Shown: piece after piece, positions 17,512 to 62,400 of the stretch
How positions within the stretch are numbered: position 1 is the first letter of the stretch
Layout of the letters: each line of letters begins with the position of its first letter
Source of the DNA: Pagrus major
Taxonomy: Eukaryota; Chordata; Actinopteri; Spariformes; Sparidae
Assembly (NCBI RefSeq): GCF_040436345.1
Contig: NC_133230.1
Location: 4,919,297 to 4,983,296 of the forward strand
DNA length: 64,000 bases
Direction of reading: 5' to 3'
Position numbers and translations under genes: made by a program
The notes under the pieces: generated by a model
Databases searched by the model: none
Seen by the model: the letters and a program-made list of their open reading frames with translations, nothing else
What the model was told of the DNA's origin: nothing

Positions 17512-29524
<12,013 letters not shown>

Positions 29525-32099: not shown

Positions 32100-35000
32100 C
32101 TAGGCGTACATGGTCAACTGGAGCCACTGGGGATGAAAAGGAGGGAAAGATTCAATAAGTGGTGTTTGGTCCTTCTGACTGTGGCTGGATTTCACTCACA
32201 TTACAGTTGAGAAAGGAAAATAAGCTCATATAAATTTGACTTTTGTTTACTAAACCGCACAATTATAATATTATACACTGCCAGTTAGAGTAAGACTAAA
32301 ACGGATTCCTTGGGAGTGATGTACAGTGTTGTATTATAGGTGATACAACTCAAATATTCACTGTGATTACAAAGTCATAAATCTGCAAGAAAAAACAGAA
32401 ATTCTCTGAGATTTTCTTAGATTTTCCAATTATAGTCGTGAATTCATGGGAGGAAAAAAAACTCACAAAACAGGTTCCTTGAATAACAAAGCATACACTT
32501 TTTAATTAAAGTTTTCTCTCTGAATAATACTCCCTCTCCAGTTCTTCTTCTTCTCCTATTTAAACTACAGCAGCCCTAATAAGCCGACATAACAACAGAT
32601 AAAATAATACATTTATGTTATGTTTAGTACCAGCAGTTTTATACAATGGCTATTCTTCCTGGGTGTGTAATGATTTATATACTTCAGTAAAAGTACTATA
32701 TGAGAGCAGTGGTTTCCAACATTTCTTTCCAAGGACTTATTCTTGTCAGGTACTTTTCTCTGCTCTGACCGAAGTAAAGCTGTACAGCATTTTAACATAT
32801 AGAAAGCCCGTCTGTGTCTGATAAGCAGTGGTGGAATGTATCTATATGTACCTTAGTAGAGTACAAATTCAAGGTACTTGTACTTCAACTTTGTACTTCA
32901 ACTGCATGACATCTTAGAGGCAAATATTGTACTTTCAACTCCACTAAATTGTATTCAAGTTTTGTGGAGTGACTTCACAGTTAGCATGTTGTCGTAGCTC
33001 TTACCTCCAGGACACTGAGTCTGATTGTACCGTCTCCATCCTGATCAAAGGCCTGGAACGCCCCTGAAGAGAAAAAGACATCACGCTGCATCTCTGATTC
33101 AACACAGGGGTGACACACACTTCATACAAGAGCCCGTAGAGTATACCAAACTCATATTAACCAAGCCGGATGGTGCTTTATTCAAAACATTAACAGGGGG
33201 TTAAAAAAGAAAAATATTAAGTTTGTAAAAGACACACAAAGTAAAATACTGATGCAAGGCTGGAAGGACACTGCAGCGTATCGTTAACTTATGTTAGTAA
33301 CGGTGCAGGTGAGGCACTGACTTACTGAACATGGCTTCGAGCCGGACCAGACAGCTGATGAAGCTGTCGAAGTCGATGTTCATGTTCTCGTTTGCGTAGC
33401 GCATGGTGATGATGTCGTACAGCTGGTTGTTGAGACGGAAGCCTGAGCGGGACACAAGACACATGACTGTACAGTGACAAGAACATTTAGAGGATGAGTT
33501 CAAGCTGTAGGTTCATCTGCAGCACACACTGAATTAAATCCTACTGCCTTTAATCAAACTTGTGAAGTCTGGATCTTTTTTTTAAGTGTTTGATATACGA
33601 ATATTGTAATATTGAGCACAGACACCTTAATTCCACTTACATTGTATTATAACAACATAAATCTAACAAATATCTCAAAACCTGTGCAGAAACAAACTAA
33701 ATAACTGCAAAAATCTATATGCAGGTGCAAAAAAAAAAAAAATCTGTCGAGTTACCTGCATCATTGACAGCATTCCTCATCTCGTAACTGTTGATGCTAC
33801 CAGACTGGTCGGCGTTATAGTGCTTAAAGATTCCCTGAAAAAGAGAAAGTGTGTGAATGCCTATCACCCTGCTGGGAGTAAATTAATCTTTACAGATTAA
33901 AGCCCAGGACGAGTAGTAGACAAGTAATTTGTAATCACTGCAGAGGTCCGCTGTGATTTCAATCACATGCAATCTGCCATGCTCGAAATTTGTCATATTT
34001 TTCTAAAATAATTTAGCAATCAAGCCACAGAGCATCTGTTATTGATCTAAATGAGCTGCAAATATGTATTTATGCTTGCAACACATGCAGAAAGTGGGCA
34101 AAACAACTCTAAACTATATTATTAACGTAGCTGCTGATGAAGAAGAGATGCTCCAATCCTGAAACACTGATGCTACACAGAGCCTTGACATCATATCCAG
34201 GTGATAATGCCAGTAAATTTGAGTGAAAAGTACACATATATAAGAGGTGATACTTGTCCTGTACAATAAAGGCCTTAGTTCAACTGTGAATAATGTTGTA
34301 AAGTGTTAAAGTGTAACTGCTCTTATATAAAATGAGAGAGAAGGAAAACTGAATTCCCACCTGCCACTGTTTGATCTTATTCCACAGATGTCTGAACTCC
34401 TGAAGATTGAGTCTACCTGTCCCGTCCATCTAAACACAAGCAGTTAAGACCAAAATCGTCTAACGCATCAGTCAGTGTCCACTCAGAAAACAACCTGCTT
34501 CGTATTCCAGTGTTGGTCTGTGAAAACAACATCAGCTTTCCCACAAAGTGAGTTGTGTTTTATGTCAGTAAGAGACTCTATCAAGCAGATAAAGACAAAT
34601 GTTTGATCTATTAGGTGATTCGTCACTGTGTTCGTGTGGTGAAATCAGGCCTAGGCCCTGTGAGCGTCCATCACAGACCCCGCCATTGGGTCTCGGCAGG
34701 TTGTGCCTCCTACAGACAACACAGCCAGCCCGAAGCACTCGATACAAAGGATACGTCCATCAGAGCAATCATGCTCCTGCAGCTCTCCAGGCTGAAGCCC
34801 TCTGTGTTCAGGTCCTTATCTGGAGGGAGACACAGATTGAATTTATTGCAACTGTAGGGAGGTGATTCTTCCAAAACTCTCTTTCAGAATAAGTCTAAGA
34901 GTCGGCCAGCAGGACACATTTTGTCTTTGATGTTGTTCGATGAGTGTGGGATCATGGGAGTTGTTCACCACTGCCGATGATAATCTAGCTGACATGACTC

Positions 35001-44695: not shown

Positions 44696-47600
44696 CTACA
44701 GTATCTGTATCTCCCAGTCCTTCGTCACGCTGAGGTTCAGGTTGCTCACTGTCAGCATGCGGCTGGTCTCCGTGTATTGAAAAGCAGCAGAGGAGTCTTT
44801 AGCACCTGGTGACAAAAATAAAAGATGTATATCTAAAGATGTATGTGTCATTGCTTCATTTTGCTGCTGTAGAAATATATTTCCTTGCCTCCTCTTTTAA
44901 ATCACTTCTTAAAACCTATTTTCATAGACTTTCTTTAATGCAATGGTTGTTGTTTTATACTGCTTTTTATTGTTTTTATTGCTCGTATTCTTATTATTTC
45001 TATTATGTATTGTTGTACTGTCTGCTTAGTGTTTGTCATTCTGTTGTTTTAGGACCCTGAGTATCCTGTTTTTGCTTTGTTTGTCAAAGCACTTTGTAAA
45101 CTCTGTTTATAAAAGGTGCTATTATAGTTATTATTACTACTACAATGGCAGAGTTCCTCACCTGACAGATGCACAACCACTGTGGACGGTTTGTTCTTCA
45201 CCCCGAGGACGGTGACTGACTGTATCACCGTATCACAGTCGAACGTTCCTTCTTCACTGGCAGGACTGCGAGACGCAACGACAGATATCAAATGATCACG
45301 TGTGAAGAGTTTTCAGATCAAAAATTCAAATTGTTTGAGCCCTCAGCTTTCATGACCGTAAGTGTTCGGTTTTTTTCCAGCTCCTTTCACATGTGGTCTA
45401 AAACTGGATCCTTCTTTCAGAGGTGTGAGTGATGACTCACCGGCAGAGCAGACGGCCTGACAGCATGTTGAACTTGCGCAGGCAGAAGGCCTTTCTGTCC
45501 CGGTAGCTGAAGGAGTGGCCGTCGTCCAGGTACAACTCACCATCAGCGAGACCCTGCAGAGAGAAGGGGCCGCGGTCAGGATTTTACTAATTAAATGATA
45601 CAAATGACACAGGTCTAAACTTATAAAAAGTTTCATTTCTAAATGTTTTGTGTATTACTGTGTAACGACTCAGAAATAATGTAAACATGATCTGGAAGGA
45701 TCCATACTGTGTTACACGCTGCGACAAAGAAAACATTTGTAGCTACATCTCTTCTATTCAGCAATAAATGTTTTCTCAAAATGTTTCTAATATTTTAGCC
45801 ATCACTCATTATGTCAACAGAGTTTGTCTGAGGTATATCAACACGAGCCAGGTTCACACATCTGTTGATGCTCACCTGAGAGTTGAGAGCCACAGTGATG
45901 TTGAGGGGGAGCTCCTTGAATTCGGCTGAACAGGAGCCGCTTCCCACTGACCTGCAGACCACCGAGCCGCCTCGCTGGAACACAGGAACCTGCACAGAGG
46001 AAACACCAGGAAATTAATCTCAGCTTCCAGAATATAACATCTGGCTATTACTACTGACAAACACTCACTGTGTCCAGGGTGACTGGAAGAGTCAGAGTCC
46101 TGCCTCCTTTATACACCTCTGCAGAGTGGACATCATACCACACCTACAACCGAAACATACAACATCCTCATTGAGGTGTATCATATATTAAAACATATAA
46201 ATGTGTCACCTGGTGGTTGATTTACCTCTTCAGATCCTGGAAGTAAGACTTTGATTTCTTCAACACCCGGTTTGATTACAGGACAGGCCAGCAGAGCTCC
46301 ACCTGCATGATGTAGACAGTTAAACTAAGAGAAAGTACAGGAAGGTACACTGAGTGAAGATGCAAAATTAAAAAGGTATTCATCACCAATCATATACTGG
46401 TTGTCCATGCTGAAGATGCTCTCTTCTCTCTGGAACTCCACCCACAGAGGTCTGTACAAATTTAAATAAAATGAGCATTTCTATATGTTTTGTACACATT
46501 TAATATATCTATAAAAGTCGTTGATCTCTTACGCCTGAAGCTACAGAGGGTTGCTGGGGCTTACAGTACTTCCCCTGAGCAGCAGAGGGCAGCAGCACTT
46601 ACCTGAGTGGAGGCAGACCTGAGGTGTGAGCCTGGTAGAAGAGAGTGTACCAGTAGGGCAGCAAACAGTACCTAAGTACAGAAGAGACAAGAGAGTTAAA
46701 AACCTGCCTCTATCCTGGGATCATTTACACATAACTGTGTCTTATTGGATGCATCAGAAAAGAAAACTGAGAAACACATTACAGATTTGTAATGCATGTC
46801 TGAAAACACCTTTAACATACCTCTGTTTGATCACAGTGCGGATTGCAGCGGTGACCTCCTCTCCAAACAGCCAGGGCTCCCGACGCTTCGACCAAATTGC
46901 GCAGTGACCTCGGAAAAATGGCTGCAGAGCTGCTGCCTGGTACCAGCGCACCAGCAGCTCCGGTTCAGGGTCCCGGAAAAACCCACCGACATCGGCTGAA
47001 ACAAGGAGGAAAATGAGAGACTGCAACTCAAAGGTGTTGAGCACATCACAGTGCTGCAAGTCTTGAAATTCACAATGAACAATACTAAGCTCACCTCCAC
47101 AAAATGCTATCCCTGTGATGCTTAAAGATAAAAGCATTGGAATGGAGATCTTCAGATACTCCCAAGTGGCGACGTTGTCACCTGTCCATACTGCTCCTGC
47201 AGCCCCAACAAGTTCAGTCACAGAAAACAGTTATAGCAGTTAAGGATATAAATACATCGCAGTTTATTTTTCAGTTTTTTAAAATGTACCATATCTCTGT
47301 GACCCAGCGAAGAAGGAGCGTGTAAGGACGAAAGGTCTCTCTGAGCCACCTGAGCGAGCTATCAGACCCTCCGCTGTGGCCATGTGCTGTGAGGCAACAA
47401 CGGAAAAAACTTTGCATTGAATGTTAACATATTAGATTACATACATGGAAAATATATCTCTGTTGCATCAAGTTAAATCACCTGGTAGAAGCCGTACAGG
47501 TTGTGTAATTCCCGGTGTTCCCAGCCCCCATAATGCACTGCGTCCTTTGGCATCGTCTGCTCGGGCCCACCGAACACAGACGGTTCATTCATATCATTCC

Positions 47601-50600
47601 ACAAAAATAACGATGGCGTTGATCCCTGCATCAGACATAAACAATTCAACCACGGCGTATCATTCCTCTGGTTTAAGATCATATCCTGGGGTTGCATATA
47701 CAGTATACATAAGTGAATTTCTTTCTTACCTTGTACTCTTCCAGGCTGAAACATCCGGAGTACCACGCTCGAGTGTCTGGATTGCTGAAGTCAATGTAAG
47801 AGCACGCACCTGTGAGAGAGGTTATAAAATGAGGTTATCATTTTATTTACATTTTCAATTTTATTAATTCATTCTTACATTTATTATATTTATATGCTTA
47901 TTTCTGTATTTTTTCTGTAACTTACCTTGTGCCTTGTATTCCCAAACCCCCATTTATAGTTTATAAGTATTAACTAAAGCCTACATTTATTTTAAATATT
48001 AATTTTGGTGCATTTAATGGCATATCAATTTATTTCTTGATTTATTTTTGATTTGGGTATTTTTACTCCTTGATAGGCGTCATGATATTAAGCGAGATTT
48101 CATTATGTTAGTTCAGAATTAAATAAAAACATTACCAGGCCAGCATGAGCCCAGATAGATCTGCCCCTCTCTGTCCCGCACAAAGTGCCCTCCCTCTCGG
48201 GCCTCATTGTACAGCAACCAACCAGGATCAAACTTGAAGTGGGGATCACTGATAACCACCAACTGAAAAGTAAAAACACAAACAACAAAAATAAGCAGAA
48301 TAAATAAACTACATTTGTAACAAGTGACAACCAAATGAGGCTGTATATATACGATGCATTCTGAAAGTGACCTTTCTGTTCTTCTTCTGTAGGTGGTGCT
48401 GCAGATCAGCTGGTTCAGGGAAAAGTTCAGGGTCCCAGGTGAAGTAACGCTTCCCATCCGTGTGCTCGATATCCAGCCAGATGACGTCATACGGAATATC
48501 GTGCTGATCAAATCCAGCATCTACTGCCTTCACGTCGGCTTCGTCGTTGTAGTTCCAGCGGCACTGGTGGTACCCGAGTGCAAACAAAGGGGGTAGGGCT
48601 TGATACCCTGACAGAGGGAGGGAAGAGAAATATGAGTCTGAGTCAAGCTGATGGATGATGTATGGGCATAATGTCAGCATCACATGGAGGTAACATGTGG
48701 AGGAGATTGACTTTTTTAATTTCAAGACCAAATAAATACATTCAGGCTGCATACACACCTGTCAGCTGAGCAAACTGGGAGAAGAGCTGCTGTGGACTGG
48801 GCCCGAGCAGAACCACGCAGTCAATCACACCACTTTCTGACAGCCAGTGTACGTCAGTCTGCTTCTGGACGCCCTTCGCTGGGGGTGTTTGGTCATCCTG
48901 GGTGAGGTAAGGGGTTTTTAAGTGGTTATGAATGTGTAGTTTGACACGTCTTCTAAAAGGCTTTAACTTGGAAATGGTTTCTCTGGTTTAATTAAAGTTA
49001 AATAAACTTTTCTGTCATCTGTTTTCAACCAAAAGAACCTGCAAAAGCAACACCAAAGGACTGGACTTTAGCTTGCCCGCCAACATCTTGTACCCAGCCT
49101 GGGATTTGATACAAGAATTTCACCTGCTCCTGAGAGGCAGATATGGTATAAGAGCAACACTGGAACAAGGGTTACCTGATGCTCAGATGGGCTGTAATGA
49201 ACGTTCACATATGTTTCGGATGCATTCAGCCAGAATAAACCCAAAGTCCTGTCGGGCTTGTGGGCAACCAACAGCGGCACAGACCCGTACAGGCCAAAGC
49301 GGCTGTACACGTCATAGGCAAAGACATCCAAGTTATACAGCCGATACGGTTCACCACCTCTGTGAAATGAACAATCAATTACATGATGATGATACGTGAT
49401 GGTGACGTGCAAATAAATGAAAATAGATGTCTGTACCTTCATTCTTTGCTACATGCATTCGGTTAAAAAAGACCCTGTGTGTACCTGGTGTCTCTGAGCT
49501 GAAGGTCATCAGCGTGTTCTGGAAGACCGTACACATGACTGAACCCGTGTAAACAAAGGTCCGACCCAATGCTGCTGGGACCTGGAGATAAACAACATGA
49601 ATATTTTAACTTTCATTCATGTAATTATCTTTGTACTGATGTGTCTTTGTGGTTTTCTGAATAAACTACAATGTACTTTATGTATTTCTGACTTTCCATG
49701 CAAATCTAATACCTTCGTACCCAAATTTGAACTGAAGTTAATGCATCTTTGACTTTATAATCCAATTCATTTGTAAGATCTGTCACTACTTTTATTAAGG
49801 TTTTAAGACTTTTTAAGTACCTGCAAAGACCTTGTTTCATTTTGTCAAATTCCTCTTTATACATTTGTCAGGAAAGGTGCTATGTCAATATTATTATTAT
49901 GTAATTATAATATGTATTATAAGTAGAATCATAAATAATACTTAAAGGGTTAGGGTTAGGTAAAGGTGCAAATACAAAATCAGAATATTAATATTTACAA
50001 TATTAATGAGGTAATAATACAAAAAATATATATAAATATTTATATTGTCCACAACTGAATAAACAAGCTGTTCTCAAATGGAAAATAAGGTCCCAGAACA
50101 CTGTTTGAAGCCACAAAGGTGGCAGGGTCCGCCACACATAAACAAAGTAAAACAGAATGAAATGTCCTTTAAGGTCAGTTTGTTTATTTAGTTTGTTTAG
50201 ACATTAAAAAAATAAATCAGTCAAAGAAGAGCTCTAAAACTACATAGTGCACCTTTAACTGTGTTACAGTGTTGGATGAAGTTCAGACAAGACTAACCGA
50301 GCAGACTTAGTCTGTCTTTTGAAACTGTAAAATAGCAGACACAAACCGTTGGCTTTGATATCCACGAAGTCCCTGAAAGTCTCTTTCCATAACGAACTTG
50401 TGTGGTCCTCTTCAAGCTGCCAGAGGAACAAGGATAGAAAAGAATAAATGTATTTATAGACCAGATTAGGCTTCAAGTAGGAGTAATATTACATTTGTAT
50501 TCTCGTACCTCACTGCCATCAGAGGTGGCCCTAAGGACAAACAACAAGGGGAGAAACACAAGATAATGTCATTTAATTCCCCTCTTCATGTGTTATTGTT

Positions 50601-56400: not shown

Positions 56401-59400
56401 ACTTGTCGCTGGAGAAGAGGGTCAAAAAGAGAGGACGTATCGAGGTCACCAGTAGCCTGATCAGGACATTTTTTGTTCAGATGTGTTTTGAAATGTCTTC
56501 TTCTGCCAAACACTGACTTCAAGCGAGATGAGAGCAGCTGACACAGTTTTCTTCTTTGTTTTTTACCTTCTAAGTCCTGTTGGATCATAAATGTAATATT
56601 CTGTTTAGTCTGCAGTCACTGTCCTCCATTCATTTGGTGTAATGTTGCAACATGAGTAGTTTTATAGTGTCACTGATTTTCCCCTCACTGTCATTTATAG
56701 GACAACAAAGCCATGAACATGTTCGGTATGGACCACATGTTGAAGGACGGCTGGAGTGGCTTCTACAGTCAAGGCTACATGTACTTCGACAACTGCTCGT
56801 CCCTCTTCTTACCGAGGGTAAACAGTAACACACACAGTGAATCACCACTTTGAACACAAGTTTACTGCAGCAGTTATCTAACATCTGAGTGTTTCAGGTA
56901 ACTTCATCCAGGTTTCTTTGCTCTATCTGCTCACCTAGGTGTATTATCCAGACTTCAACCCGTATCAGCCTCTCACCAGCCCGAAGGTGAGTTACTGATC
57001 ATGCATGGATTGGATTGACCATATTGATAATACTATTTAAAAGCTATAAAGAGACTTGTTTTATGAATTTGTTTGTGTTTTCTGTTCAGAGTGACCCATC
57101 CAATCAAAGTCTGATTTGGCCCGACAAGCCGGTAAGACATGTTGTTACTACTTTTTAATGTAAATACGTGTTTTTTAAAGGTCACGTCCTGTGGAGCCCA
57201 TGAAATTATGTATGTTTGCTCACAAACGTCTTTTTGCAGGATATCAGTGCAGTGGCCAAAGCGTGGCAGGACAGTCCATATCTGTTCATAGTCAAGGTGC
57301 AGCCTTTGCTCCGCGGGATAGAGGATGATGACATCGGAGCAGAGCAGTTCAGCTTCACTTTCACAAGTGAGAAATACAATTTTACTTCAAAAGCTTTAGG
57401 ATCTCTCATATTCACTCTGTGTCAGGAGATGTGACTTTTTTTTTTTTCTTTCCTCAGTGAAAGTTGAGATGAAGGGACCACATGACTACTCTTCTCCAGC
57501 AGACTGGCCCCTGATGATGGTATGTACTGAATTAAATAAAGGAAGGGTTTAAATTAGGGGTCAACAACCTTTTAATATCAAAAGAAAACCATTTTGTCAA
57601 AATCTGTCCGGTGCTGCAAAACATATTCGAGCCTCACAATGAGGGTAACACAGCTTACATTAATATTTTCACATATGGCTACTCTGTGGTGGGCTATTTA
57701 TGCATATTCAGTGCCTGATCTTTGCATTTCCATTACAGTTTTACCATGTTTTGTTGCATTTATGAAATTATAGAACTAGCCTACAATAAACAAGAGAACC
57801 TTTTACATTTTTGTCATTTTTATTGGAGGATGCTATACCAACAAAACACAAAAATGTAATCTTGAGTTGTGCATAAAGTTTCAAAGTCTCCAGCCTGAAT
57901 AAGACTGTCTGTAAAATGTGATTTGAAACAAGGCTGAACACTTTTCTCTCCCTCCTGTCCCTCACAGTTCTTCATGGTCATGTGCATCGTGTATGTGCTG
58001 TTCGGGGCTCTCTGGCTCTTTTGGTGTGCTTGCTATTGGAGGGATCTGCTGCGGATCCAGTTCTGGATCGGCGCTGTCATCATCCTCGGCATGTTGGAGA
58101 AAGCTGTGTTTTACTCAGAGTACCAGAGCATCCGTTACAAGGGAGACTACGGTCGGTTGATTTAATATATTTGCTTGTCTGTGGATCTTTTTCTCTTTTC
58201 TCTTCACTGCAGTCTGTTCATAATCATAATTCTGTTTGTGTGTCTTCACAGTTCAAGGTGCTGTTATTTTTGCAGAGCTGCTTTCTGCACTCAAAAGATC
58301 TTTAGCCCGAATCCTGGTCCTCATTGTCAGTCTCGGATACGGCATAGTCCGGTAAGTTTACTCTTTTGAAATTTACCTTTTGCCTCAGGTTATGTCTCAA
58401 TAACAATCAGTGGGGGGCTCACTGCTAATACTCCCATTTCGACCTCCCTCACTTGTGTAGACCCAGACTGGGTACCACAGTCCATCGCCTTGTAGCTGTT
58501 GGGCTTCTCTACCTGCTCTTCTCCTCTGTGGAGGGTGTGCTCAGAGTGACGGGTGTAAGTATCAGCTATTAATAAACTCCACCAGCCTCTTGCTTTGTCA
58601 CCACCCAACAGCAAACATTCTCAGTATTTATTTTTAGCCTATTTTGAGAACAGTGACAGTGTCAGATAAATACAGCACATTTGGTAAAAGGTGACTTTAA
58701 GCAGCCTAAACACCAACAACGACATGCAGTTGAATTAAAGCCTATGCAATCTATTTATTTCCTTAGTTGCTCACTAAAACATGATGTGACAGACCTGTTT
58801 TTGAAGTTGTTGTCTTTTCATTTCATCCTTTTTAACACCTGTGGTTGCAGTGGTAACAGCAATTGCAGTGTCACACTACAGCAAACACTCCTCGAGCAGC
58901 TGCTTCTTGTGAAATTTAATAGAGAGGCTACTTGTGTATTTACAGTGCAGCCACACAAACTCACGCTCAAGCCAGCCTGCATTTTTCCAGTTGATTGATT
59001 TTATTGTGAAGCAGCAGAAGGGAAATGTTTGGTTGTGGTGTTTCGGTTTGTCTTTTATCAATGCGATCAATTCAAACACAGTAATGTTGGATTTTTCATG
59101 CTGCATTGTTTCTTGTGAATCCCTCGAGTGTGTAGAAGAAAATCAGACCCTGCCTGCAAGTGACAGTGATACATGAAACTTGATTAAAAACTTAAAATAT
59201 ATACATTTTAATAACCCTTATATGGTAGAATGTAATACAGTAGATGTACGGTAGACACATGTACATGAGAAGATAACCATATACAGTTATACCACTGCAA
59301 CCCTACTCATAATTAGTATCAAAAGTCAGATCTTATGAAAATCCTAAGGATTATAACTTGAAGGCAACACTCAGATGACCTTGAAAGTAAACTGTTTTGA

Positions 59401-62400
59401 AGCAGCGGTCCTGTTAAGTGGACTCAATGGACTGTACTGGATACACTAATCTATATCAGCTAAACCACCCACTGAAGATTTACTGTATCCTCAAATAAAC
59501 CAAACGGATGAGAAAGAAAAAAAGATTTCTCTTCACTCTCGCAGCTGTTCAGGAGACCATTTCTATTCCCCTTCTAAGCCGTAGTTCATCATTTTCTGTG
59601 GCTGCAAATAAAATGAACCCACTGCACTAGTGCAGATAGGACATTATCTGTTCTAGCCTCCACAATCTGATTGATGCTGATAGTGTTGGTGTATTTTTAC
59701 ATAAAACTCTTGCCTGGCACGGCACTCTGCGTAAATAAACTTGATTCGAGTAGAGGAGACGACAGAGAGAGAGGAGGTTACGCCGGGATTTAGTCTCTGG
59801 TAGGCGGACAAGTGATGATAATAAAGAATGACAAATTTGATCTGAGAGTGATATTCAAATGCAGCCAAAGACGCTGCAGCAAGTTCAGAAAGTCATGAAA
59901 ACACAGAGATACACAAACAAACATTAGAAAAGAAGGCAGGAAGAAGACTGAAGACAGGTTGTGTAGTTTGGTGAGCAGATGTGTTTTGTCAGGAGGCAGA
60001 TCTCAACACAAGCTCATCTCATGTTTATAAAAAGGACTGTGACTTCCCTTATGATTAATTTATTCTGCTCTCTCAGTCCTGTTTACACACACACACACAC
60101 ACACACACACTTTGCCCTCTGCTATCTTCTGTTTTTCAAACCCGACTCTTGTCTTCTTTTTCCAGGGTTTCTATGAGACGGTGGCCCTGGTGGCTAATCT
60201 CAGCCTCTCCCTTATTGACTCCTGTGTCATGTGGTGGATATCCTTTTATCAAAACAGCCACTCAGGACTGATTCAGACAGGATTTGCATTTTCAGAAGCG
60301 TTGCATATATAAGCTTTTGATTATGGTTTGTCCCAATGTATATACAGTATGTTCTCCTTAATTTACATCTACATTTTCATCAGTCTGTCTCAAACCACTC
60401 GCCTCCTGAAGCTTCGGAGAAATATAGTGAAGCTCTCTTTGTATCAGCACTTCACCAACACTCTCATCTTCTCTGTTGTCGGTGAGTACCAACTGCTGCA
60501 AAATGGATCGCCTCTTACAGACATCAGAGTAACACCGTTGTTTACTTTGCGTCCGCAGCTTCCATCATATTCATCATCTGGACCACCAAAGTCTTCAAGC
60601 TGGTGGACTGCCAGACGGTCAGTTTGTTTTCTGTTATTGATTGATTATTGCATTGTGTTGCGGTTCCTTGGTCTTGTCATCTCTGTGGGTTTCTTGTGTA
60701 TACAGAGATGAAAGGCGAAACGTTCCTTCCAACCTGATAACATCCATCTCTGTGTTTCTGTTTGTATCTTTTCCACAGGGTTGGAGGGACTTGTGGGTAG
60801 ATGATGCCTTCTGGCGTCTCCTGTTCTCCACCATCCTGCTGGTGATCATGGTGCTGCTGCGGCCCTCTGCCAACAGCCAAAGGTCGGAGTCTGTCTGGAG
60901 CGGGGCCTGATCCTGCAGCACCAAACTATTGCTGTCATATTAACTTGGCAGCAGCATTTAATTTCTGGTTCTGTTTTCTCTCAGGTTCTCTCATTCTCCT
61001 TTGATTGATGAAGATGATGAAGAGGAAGAGGCCAAGGAGCCCATGCTGAATGAAGCTTTCGGTAAGACTTGACTAAAGGTTGTCCAAAAAATGAGAACAC
61101 AGTATGCGACAGTGTTTACAATATATAAATAGATGGGGTAGAGTTTAATATGGCTCAGATGCCCTGACTTAAAGTCTTGGCATTTTAGTTTTACCTTAGA
61201 TAGCAGCTGTTTTTCTAAATTCGACTGAAGGCCAAGAGCCAGGTTTTGTTACATGGAGCGGACTGAATGCTTATTGATCTCTACAACACAGTGCTTAGAT
61301 AGTTTAGCTCAGATCTCAGCGCCAAGAAAGGCTGCAGGGATAAAAATTAGTCCGTTTTCTTTGTTTGTCACATCCACACAAAAGATCTGGAAACATCCAT
61401 CTTTTCATACGTCTTAATCAATCCATATTTAATCATTATTTTCTGTTCTGTCCTGATGGATGATGATGGAGCCAACGATGTTTTCAATTAGATTTGTGTT
61501 GCAGCTGCAAATAACTCACAATTTGGCCTCAGATCTGATAGAGACGGCCTTGTCATCCGCGGTGTTGTGTTGTATAACCCGTGCCACTGAGGCCACGATC
61601 TAAATCTGTTCACGCAGATATGATTCATTTAGAAATGTTCATCTTCTAATCACATAAGAGTATAAATGGAAAATGTAATAACCTAGTTGTGTAAATCATA
61701 TTATTGCACAAGAGACTTCTATGTGATTTAAACTGGCTTATTTTATTTCAGAGGGAATGAAGATGAGAGGCTCAAAGCCCGATTCTAATGGCTCCCAGAA
61801 ACTGTTGAGTAAAGAGGTGGGTTAACTGTCTTCTGTCAGCGTCTCTACTTATATTATTTAATGGTTTTATGCACAGGTAATTGGTAATTGGTAATCTGAT
61901 TTTTCCAGGATGAAGACCTAAAATGGGTTGAGGAGAACATTCCTACAACTGTAGCTGATGTGTAAGTAAAGTTGATTTAAATTTTAGACATTGAGCTGAC
62001 TGAAAAGTACTAGAAGTAGCAGTAGTAGTAGAACAGTAGCAGTCTGTGGAGTTAGTTTAAACTAACCTTTATAGTGAAGTTTGGTAGTTTAGTCCAGTGG
62101 TTCCCATCCTAGGTGTCGGGCCCCTCCAAAGGGTCACAAGATAAATCTGAGGGGAGAAGAAAGAAGAAAAAAAAAATGTTTTGATACGTAGATTTTATTT
62201 AGTATTTTAGACTTTTTTGTCATCTTTTCGTAAAATATTAGATCATTTGATCTCCTTGGGATTCAAATAGTTGTATTTCATGAGCTGATCATATGGTCTT
62301 TTAATGTAAAATGTCAATTTTAAAAGTATAAGTAACTGCAGGTTGTAAAAAGTACAATGTTTGGCTCTGAAAAGTACCAATACAACTATGTTTAAGTACT

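Follow-up and report, generated by a model that had tools for sequence, protein, structure and literature searches.

The tmem87a gene of Pagrus major contains a U12-type AT-AC minor intron, 135 nt long and lying at 60238..60372 on the forward strand of the window (the whole stretch of 64,000 nt that was analysed). The assignment depends on its motifs, on the protein junction produced by its removal, and on the same borders occurring in both paralogs elsewhere in the genome. Very probably it is orthologous to the minor intron of mammalian TMEM87A and TMEM87B, with two alternative exons competing for one AC acceptor in each paralog and with constitutive use in the window gene. It is an already known minor intron (mammalian TMEM87A/B) and so is not new in itself; the window confirms it in another vertebrate. 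What is modestly new is the single-exon state of the window gene next to paralogs that have two exons, and it comes from sequence only.

The intron opens with ATATCCTTTT (60238-60247, +), and its first nine bases, ATATCCTTT (60238..60246, +), agree with the U12-type donor RTATCCTTT at 9 of 9 positions. Toward the other end, a TCCTTRAY-like branch-point sequence, TCCTTAAT (60355..60362, +), places the likely branch A at 60361, and the AC acceptor (60371..60372, +) follows 11 nt after it. An earlier note had called an AT-AC minor-spliceosome intron here; its coordinates and motifs proved exact (the ATATCCTTTT start, TCCTTAAT with the A 11 nt from the end, AC), and the class it assigned is borne out by the donor, branch site, spacing and AC, and by the same class at both paralogs. 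The window intron agrees with U12-type AT-AC introns in general in donor, branch site, spacing and terminal dinucleotides, with no difference that matters. Taken singly, these motifs are not rare: RTATCCTTT with at most one mismatch occurs 31 times in the window against 35.5 expected (two of the 31 are perfect, at 34746 on the minus strand and at 60238 on the plus), and TCCTTRAY occurs 10 times against 11.4 expected. The ordered combination (a perfect donor, then TCCTTRAY, then AC or AG at 7-11 nt, all in a span of about 600 nt) is found a single time on the plus strand, whereas 300 first-order Markov simulations gave 0.013 per strand on average. RNA structure was looked for in the 135-nt intron and nothing was found (z -0.40), and no Rfam family matched the window at gathering score. 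A plasmid comparison, made as a check for bacterial contamination, gave no match, a result of little weight for a vertebrate gene.

The exon before the intron (60166..60237, +) is a 72-nt phase-0 exon whose 24 residues correspond to residues 355-377 of human TMEM87A, part of TM5; its counterpart in mouse Tmem87b is exon 11 or 11a. A U2-type GT-AG intron of 1611 nt (58555..60165, +; acceptor CTCTTGTCTTCTTTTTCCAG) separates it from the exon upstream of the switch position, where the paralogs carry their two alternative exons. That upstream exon (58460..58554, +) ends in ..GVLRVTG with a U2-type donor GT|GTAAGT at 58555, and is homologous to exons of both paralogs and to residues 323-354 of human TMEM87A. 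The downstream exon (60373..60481, +) translates to 36 residues over 60373-60480 and has a U2-type donor, GTGAGT, at 60482. Removing the minor intron joins codon TGG (W) to ATT (I) within the TM5 segment, and the joined exons match human TMEM87A (PDB) with E 5.2e-18, gap-free through WW|IFIS. Were the intron retained, the frame would read 24 residues and then a stop, truncating the protein inside TM5.

A script that enumerated border pairs with donors at 60190-60299 returned 38 in-frame, stop-free combinations (11 GT-AG, 9 GC-AG and 18 AT-AC), just one of which, 60238/60372, restores MWW|IFIS; the claim that this junction needs borders other than GT-AG is thereby upheld. The GT-AG and GC-AG candidates, 20 of the 38 pairs, give WW|IFIS in none. 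An alternative AC acceptor at 60366 was also rejected: it inserts IY and leaves just 5 nt behind the branch A. Gene predictors restricted to GT-AG borders will misplace tmem87 exon edges at introns of this kind.

The window gene matches Pfam GOST_TM (PF06814, E 5.8e-16), and its nearest solved relatives are TMEM87A chains (E 5.2e-18 to 1.1e-17), which identifies it as a TMEM87 gene of the GOST seven-transmembrane family. A protein search of the genome (786 Mb in 25 contigs, the window lying on contig C16) finds two further tmem87 genes, on contigs C15 and C2, making three with the window gene. Over six conserved stretches totalling 207 residues, the window and C2 genes share 157 identities, window and C15 142, and C2 and C15 148; in a 65-residue comparison with human TMEM87A the counts are 49 for the window gene, 49 for C2 and 43 for C15. 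Also in the window, at 46757-47230 and 48312-48761 of the minus strand, is a GH31 (GANC-like) gene, and the C15 copy adjoins a kinase gene for which Mer accounts for 12 of the 48 listed PDB matches, all at the top (one of its ORFs scores above the Pfam kinase cut-off, another below). The human gene order is TMEM87A-GANC, and MERTK neighbours TMEM87B. Because of the GANC-like gene in the window and the Mer-like kinase gene beside the C15 copy, the window gene is better read as tmem87a than as tmem87b, in agreement with the name it was first given. The C15 gene looks like tmem87b, and the other two like copies of tmem87a. A genome-wide search for a GANC-like exon gives one on C16 (the window itself), a weaker one at C18, a short weak one at C1, and none on C2. 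Elsewhere in the window, an open frame of 640 aa (21340-23262, +), without a Pfam match, appears by eye to be part of a ZNF106-like gene.

At the junction homologous to that of the window gene, each paralog shows AT-AC borders together with a U12-type branch site. In C15 the branch site is TTACCTTGAC, 10 nt from AC (acceptor region TTACCTTGACTACCACTAAC|ATCTTT); in C2 it is TTTCCTTGAC, 11 nt from AC (acceptor region TTTCCTTGACCGTGCCGTCAC|ATCTTC). Each gene carries two alternative exons before this acceptor, all on the minus strand. C15 has exon A (upstream, GRDNGPVLITAIVLAVFDSCAIWF, 11215558-11215629, 72 nt, donor ATATCCTTC) and exon B (downstream, AKDSDLALLANIPLALLDSSLCWW, 11215215-11215286, 72 nt, donor ATATCCTTT); C2 has exon A (upstream, DRGDNTSSRLLCDIVLAFTDSCVVWW, 1874632-1874709, 78 nt, donor ATATCCTTT) and exon B (downstream, AEDDVVLLAAIPLAVLDSTLCWW, 1874097-1874165, 69 nt, donor ATATCCGCT). 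Every one of these exons has its own AT-AC U12-type donor, and one AC acceptor is common to the two exons of a gene, so that an interlocked pair (two exons, each with a U2 acceptor and a U12 donor, before one U12 acceptor) is present in both C2 and C15. Counted from either exon, the paralog minor introns span 1125-1734 nt. The C2 exons, at 78 and 69 nt, are unlike the 72 nt of the window gene, C15 and mouse Tmem87b.

Two of these exons have irregular signals. The C15 upstream exon (C15:11215549-11215646, minus) has a poor U2 acceptor, TTGGGGGGCCAAAAATGAAG, in which the 15 nt preceding AG include 3 pyrimidines; the other exons have 13-14 there. It also ends in WF, not WW, though it has an open frame and a nearly perfect U12 donor. 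Given the acceptor and the WF end, this exon may be decaying or unspliced. In the C2 downstream exon (C2:1874088-1874165, minus) the donor ATATCCGCT is weakened: of its six positions that would pair with AAAGGA of U6atac, two are lost.

An interlocked U2/U12 arrangement has been described in TMEM87a, TMEM87b and MAPK8/9 (PMC8329584). In mouse Tmem87b, exons 11 and 11a (72 bp each) are reported as mutually exclusive and never joined; 11a is dominant in cortex, and the U12-type donor is needed for both exons (PMC6717393). In the accessible parts of these two papers (Olthof et al. 2019, PMC6717393; Akinyi and Frilander 2021, PMC8329584), mammalian TMEM87A/B resemble the window gene in having a U12-type intron in the same gene family, the likeness being one of U12 class and position; the AT-AC borders are shown here for the fish genes. 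Mouse Tmem87b, as there described, has its U12-type intron after a 72-nt exon, like the window gene, and its exon pair with U12-type donors resembles those of C15 (72 and 72 nt) and C2 (78 and 69 nt); it differs from the window gene in having two exons where the latter has one exon and a 135-nt minor intron. In the MAPK8/9 (JNK) switch, according to the portion of PMC8329584 at hand, two U2 acceptors and two U12 donors compete as in the TMEM87 pair, though in another gene family and another protein segment, and the window gene shows no second exon. AT-AC introns make up about 24% of minor introns in mouse and 22% in human (PMC6717393, in the part available). The TMEM87 minor intron is merely listed in the available part of PMC10565666, and tmem87 is absent from the main text of PMC13216214 and PMC9501576. 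A literature search, with subscription papers and supplements outside its scope, found no description of the fish tmem87 exon arrangement.

In the mechanism we favour, U11 and U12 would bind the donor and branch site of the window intron, and U6atac, U4atac and U5 would complete its excision. In C2 and C15, exon definition would pair the U2 acceptor upstream with the U12 donor downstream of each alternative exon, and the two exons would compete for one AC acceptor, exactly one entering the mRNA. As U12 donors cannot be spliced to U2 acceptors, the paralog exons would be neither joined together nor both skipped, and one would be used. In the window gene, with one exon, the minor intron would be constitutive and the choice of TM5 segment gone. 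Within this explanation we infer the splicing in the cell, the exclusivity, the loss as against ancestral absence, and the effect on the lipid slot.

Splicing of the junction by the major spliceosome at GT-AG borders, with the AT-AC motifs arising by chance, is almost certainly wrong: in-frame GT-AG pairs do exist, such as 60231 or 60234 with 60383, but these remove the conserved WWIFIS segment, all 11 in-frame GT-AG pairs fail to give WW|IFIS, and both paralogs have AT-AC borders and U12 branch sites at the equivalent place. It is also very improbable that the AT-AC intron is itself excised by the major spliceosome as a U2-type AT-AC intron. Several AT-AC introns are so spliced, according to work cited in the accessible part of PMC6717393, yet the window intron has the U12-type signals, with a donor at 9/9 to RTATCCTTT and a branch site 11 nt from the acceptor, inside the 11-13 nt optimum given in that same source.

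An improbable reading, if less so, is that the window gene keeps a second exon diverged beyond recognition and that the switch is intact. Exon class A is loosely conserved (9/20 between C2 and C15), and the upstream intron is 1611 nt long. Against this, a similarity scan of the 1611-nt and 135-nt introns found no second exon-11-like segment; its best scores, 21 (A) and 15 (B) in the longer intron and 7 (A) and -1 (B) in the shorter, fall within those of 20 shuffles, and the identical scan recovers both exons in C2 and C15 with scores of 44-87, although, as it compares 20 residues, a strongly diverged exon could escape it. No other open segment of 54-99 nt in the window gene has AG before it and a donor of at least 7/9, beyond the known exon and its internal start at 60178; stops break all three frames of the 135-nt intron; and the assembled stretch examined contains no N. 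The window gene thus lacks the interlocked mutually exclusive pair, one exon having been found, and by parsimony across this genome's three tmem87 genes it has most likely lost one of the two arms of an old U2/U12 exon switch. A broader version of this loss, which we regard as tentative and rather unlikely, has the switch older than the tmem87a/b split and dismantled differently in each copy, with the window gene dropping one exon, the upstream acceptor failing in C15 and the downstream U12 donor weakened in C2. If true, which of two TM5 segments lines the lipid slot would come to depend on which gene is used, where before it was settled by splicing inside a single gene.

The age of the two exons can be judged from their conservation. 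Class B is tight, with C2_B, C15_B and the human sequence sharing 13-15 of 20 residues pairwise, which places exon B before the tmem87a/b split. Exon A is likely older than the split as well, with less assurance than for B; C2_A and C15_A, as noted, form a loose class, and A and B within one gene share 9/20 residues in C2 and 7/20 in C15. The solved human isoform can be assigned to class B because the C2 protein scores 126.9 bits against human TMEM87A with exon B and 107.0 bits with exon A. The window exon is intermediate. Over its last 20 residues it scores 62 (10/20 identical) to C15_B, 54 (8) to C2_A, 50 (8) to C2_B, 41 (6/20) to human and 39 (6) to C15_A. Six columns are identical among the three B sequences and differ from both A sequences, and the window exon agrees with B at one of them; two other columns are shared by the A sequences and not seen in B, and it agrees with A at one of these. 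By total score the exon leans to B, by diagnostic columns away from it. Taken together, the three genes suggest that the two-exon arrangement predates the separation of tmem87a and tmem87b, and that a gene can lose it yet keep its minor intron. Side by side in one genome they make a natural comparison: two have the two-exon U2/U12 arrangement and the third does not.

The swapped segment is tied to lipid-contacting residues of TM5 (D371, C375 and W376 in human TMEM87A), the helix that lines the lipid slot according to the available part of PMC11239671. The equivalents of D371 and W376 are invariant in the six exon sequences compared, whereas position 375 varies: all three B sequences have C there, and C2_A, C15_A and the window exon have V, I or M. 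From this pattern, an A/B switch would retune the lipid slot with the phosphate ligand kept.

Genes for three of the minor-spliceosome RNAs, sought in this genome with Rfam models, are present above the Rfam cut-off: U12 on C23 (131.2 bits), U6atac on C6 (134.2 bits) and two U4atac matches on C9 and C24 (93.8 and 87.7 bits). In the minor spliceosome, U12 pairs with the branch site and U6atac with the donor. By eye, the U12 RNA (..GAGTAAGGAAAA.., GTAAGGA) is complementary to the branch-site TCCTTA with the second A bulged, and AAAGGA in U6atac (..GAAAGGAGAG..) is complementary to TCCTTT, donor positions 4-9. The motifs, these pairings with the genome's own RNAs and the presence of U12, U4atac and U6atac genes point to a tmem87a intron that is most likely dependent on the minor spliceosome.
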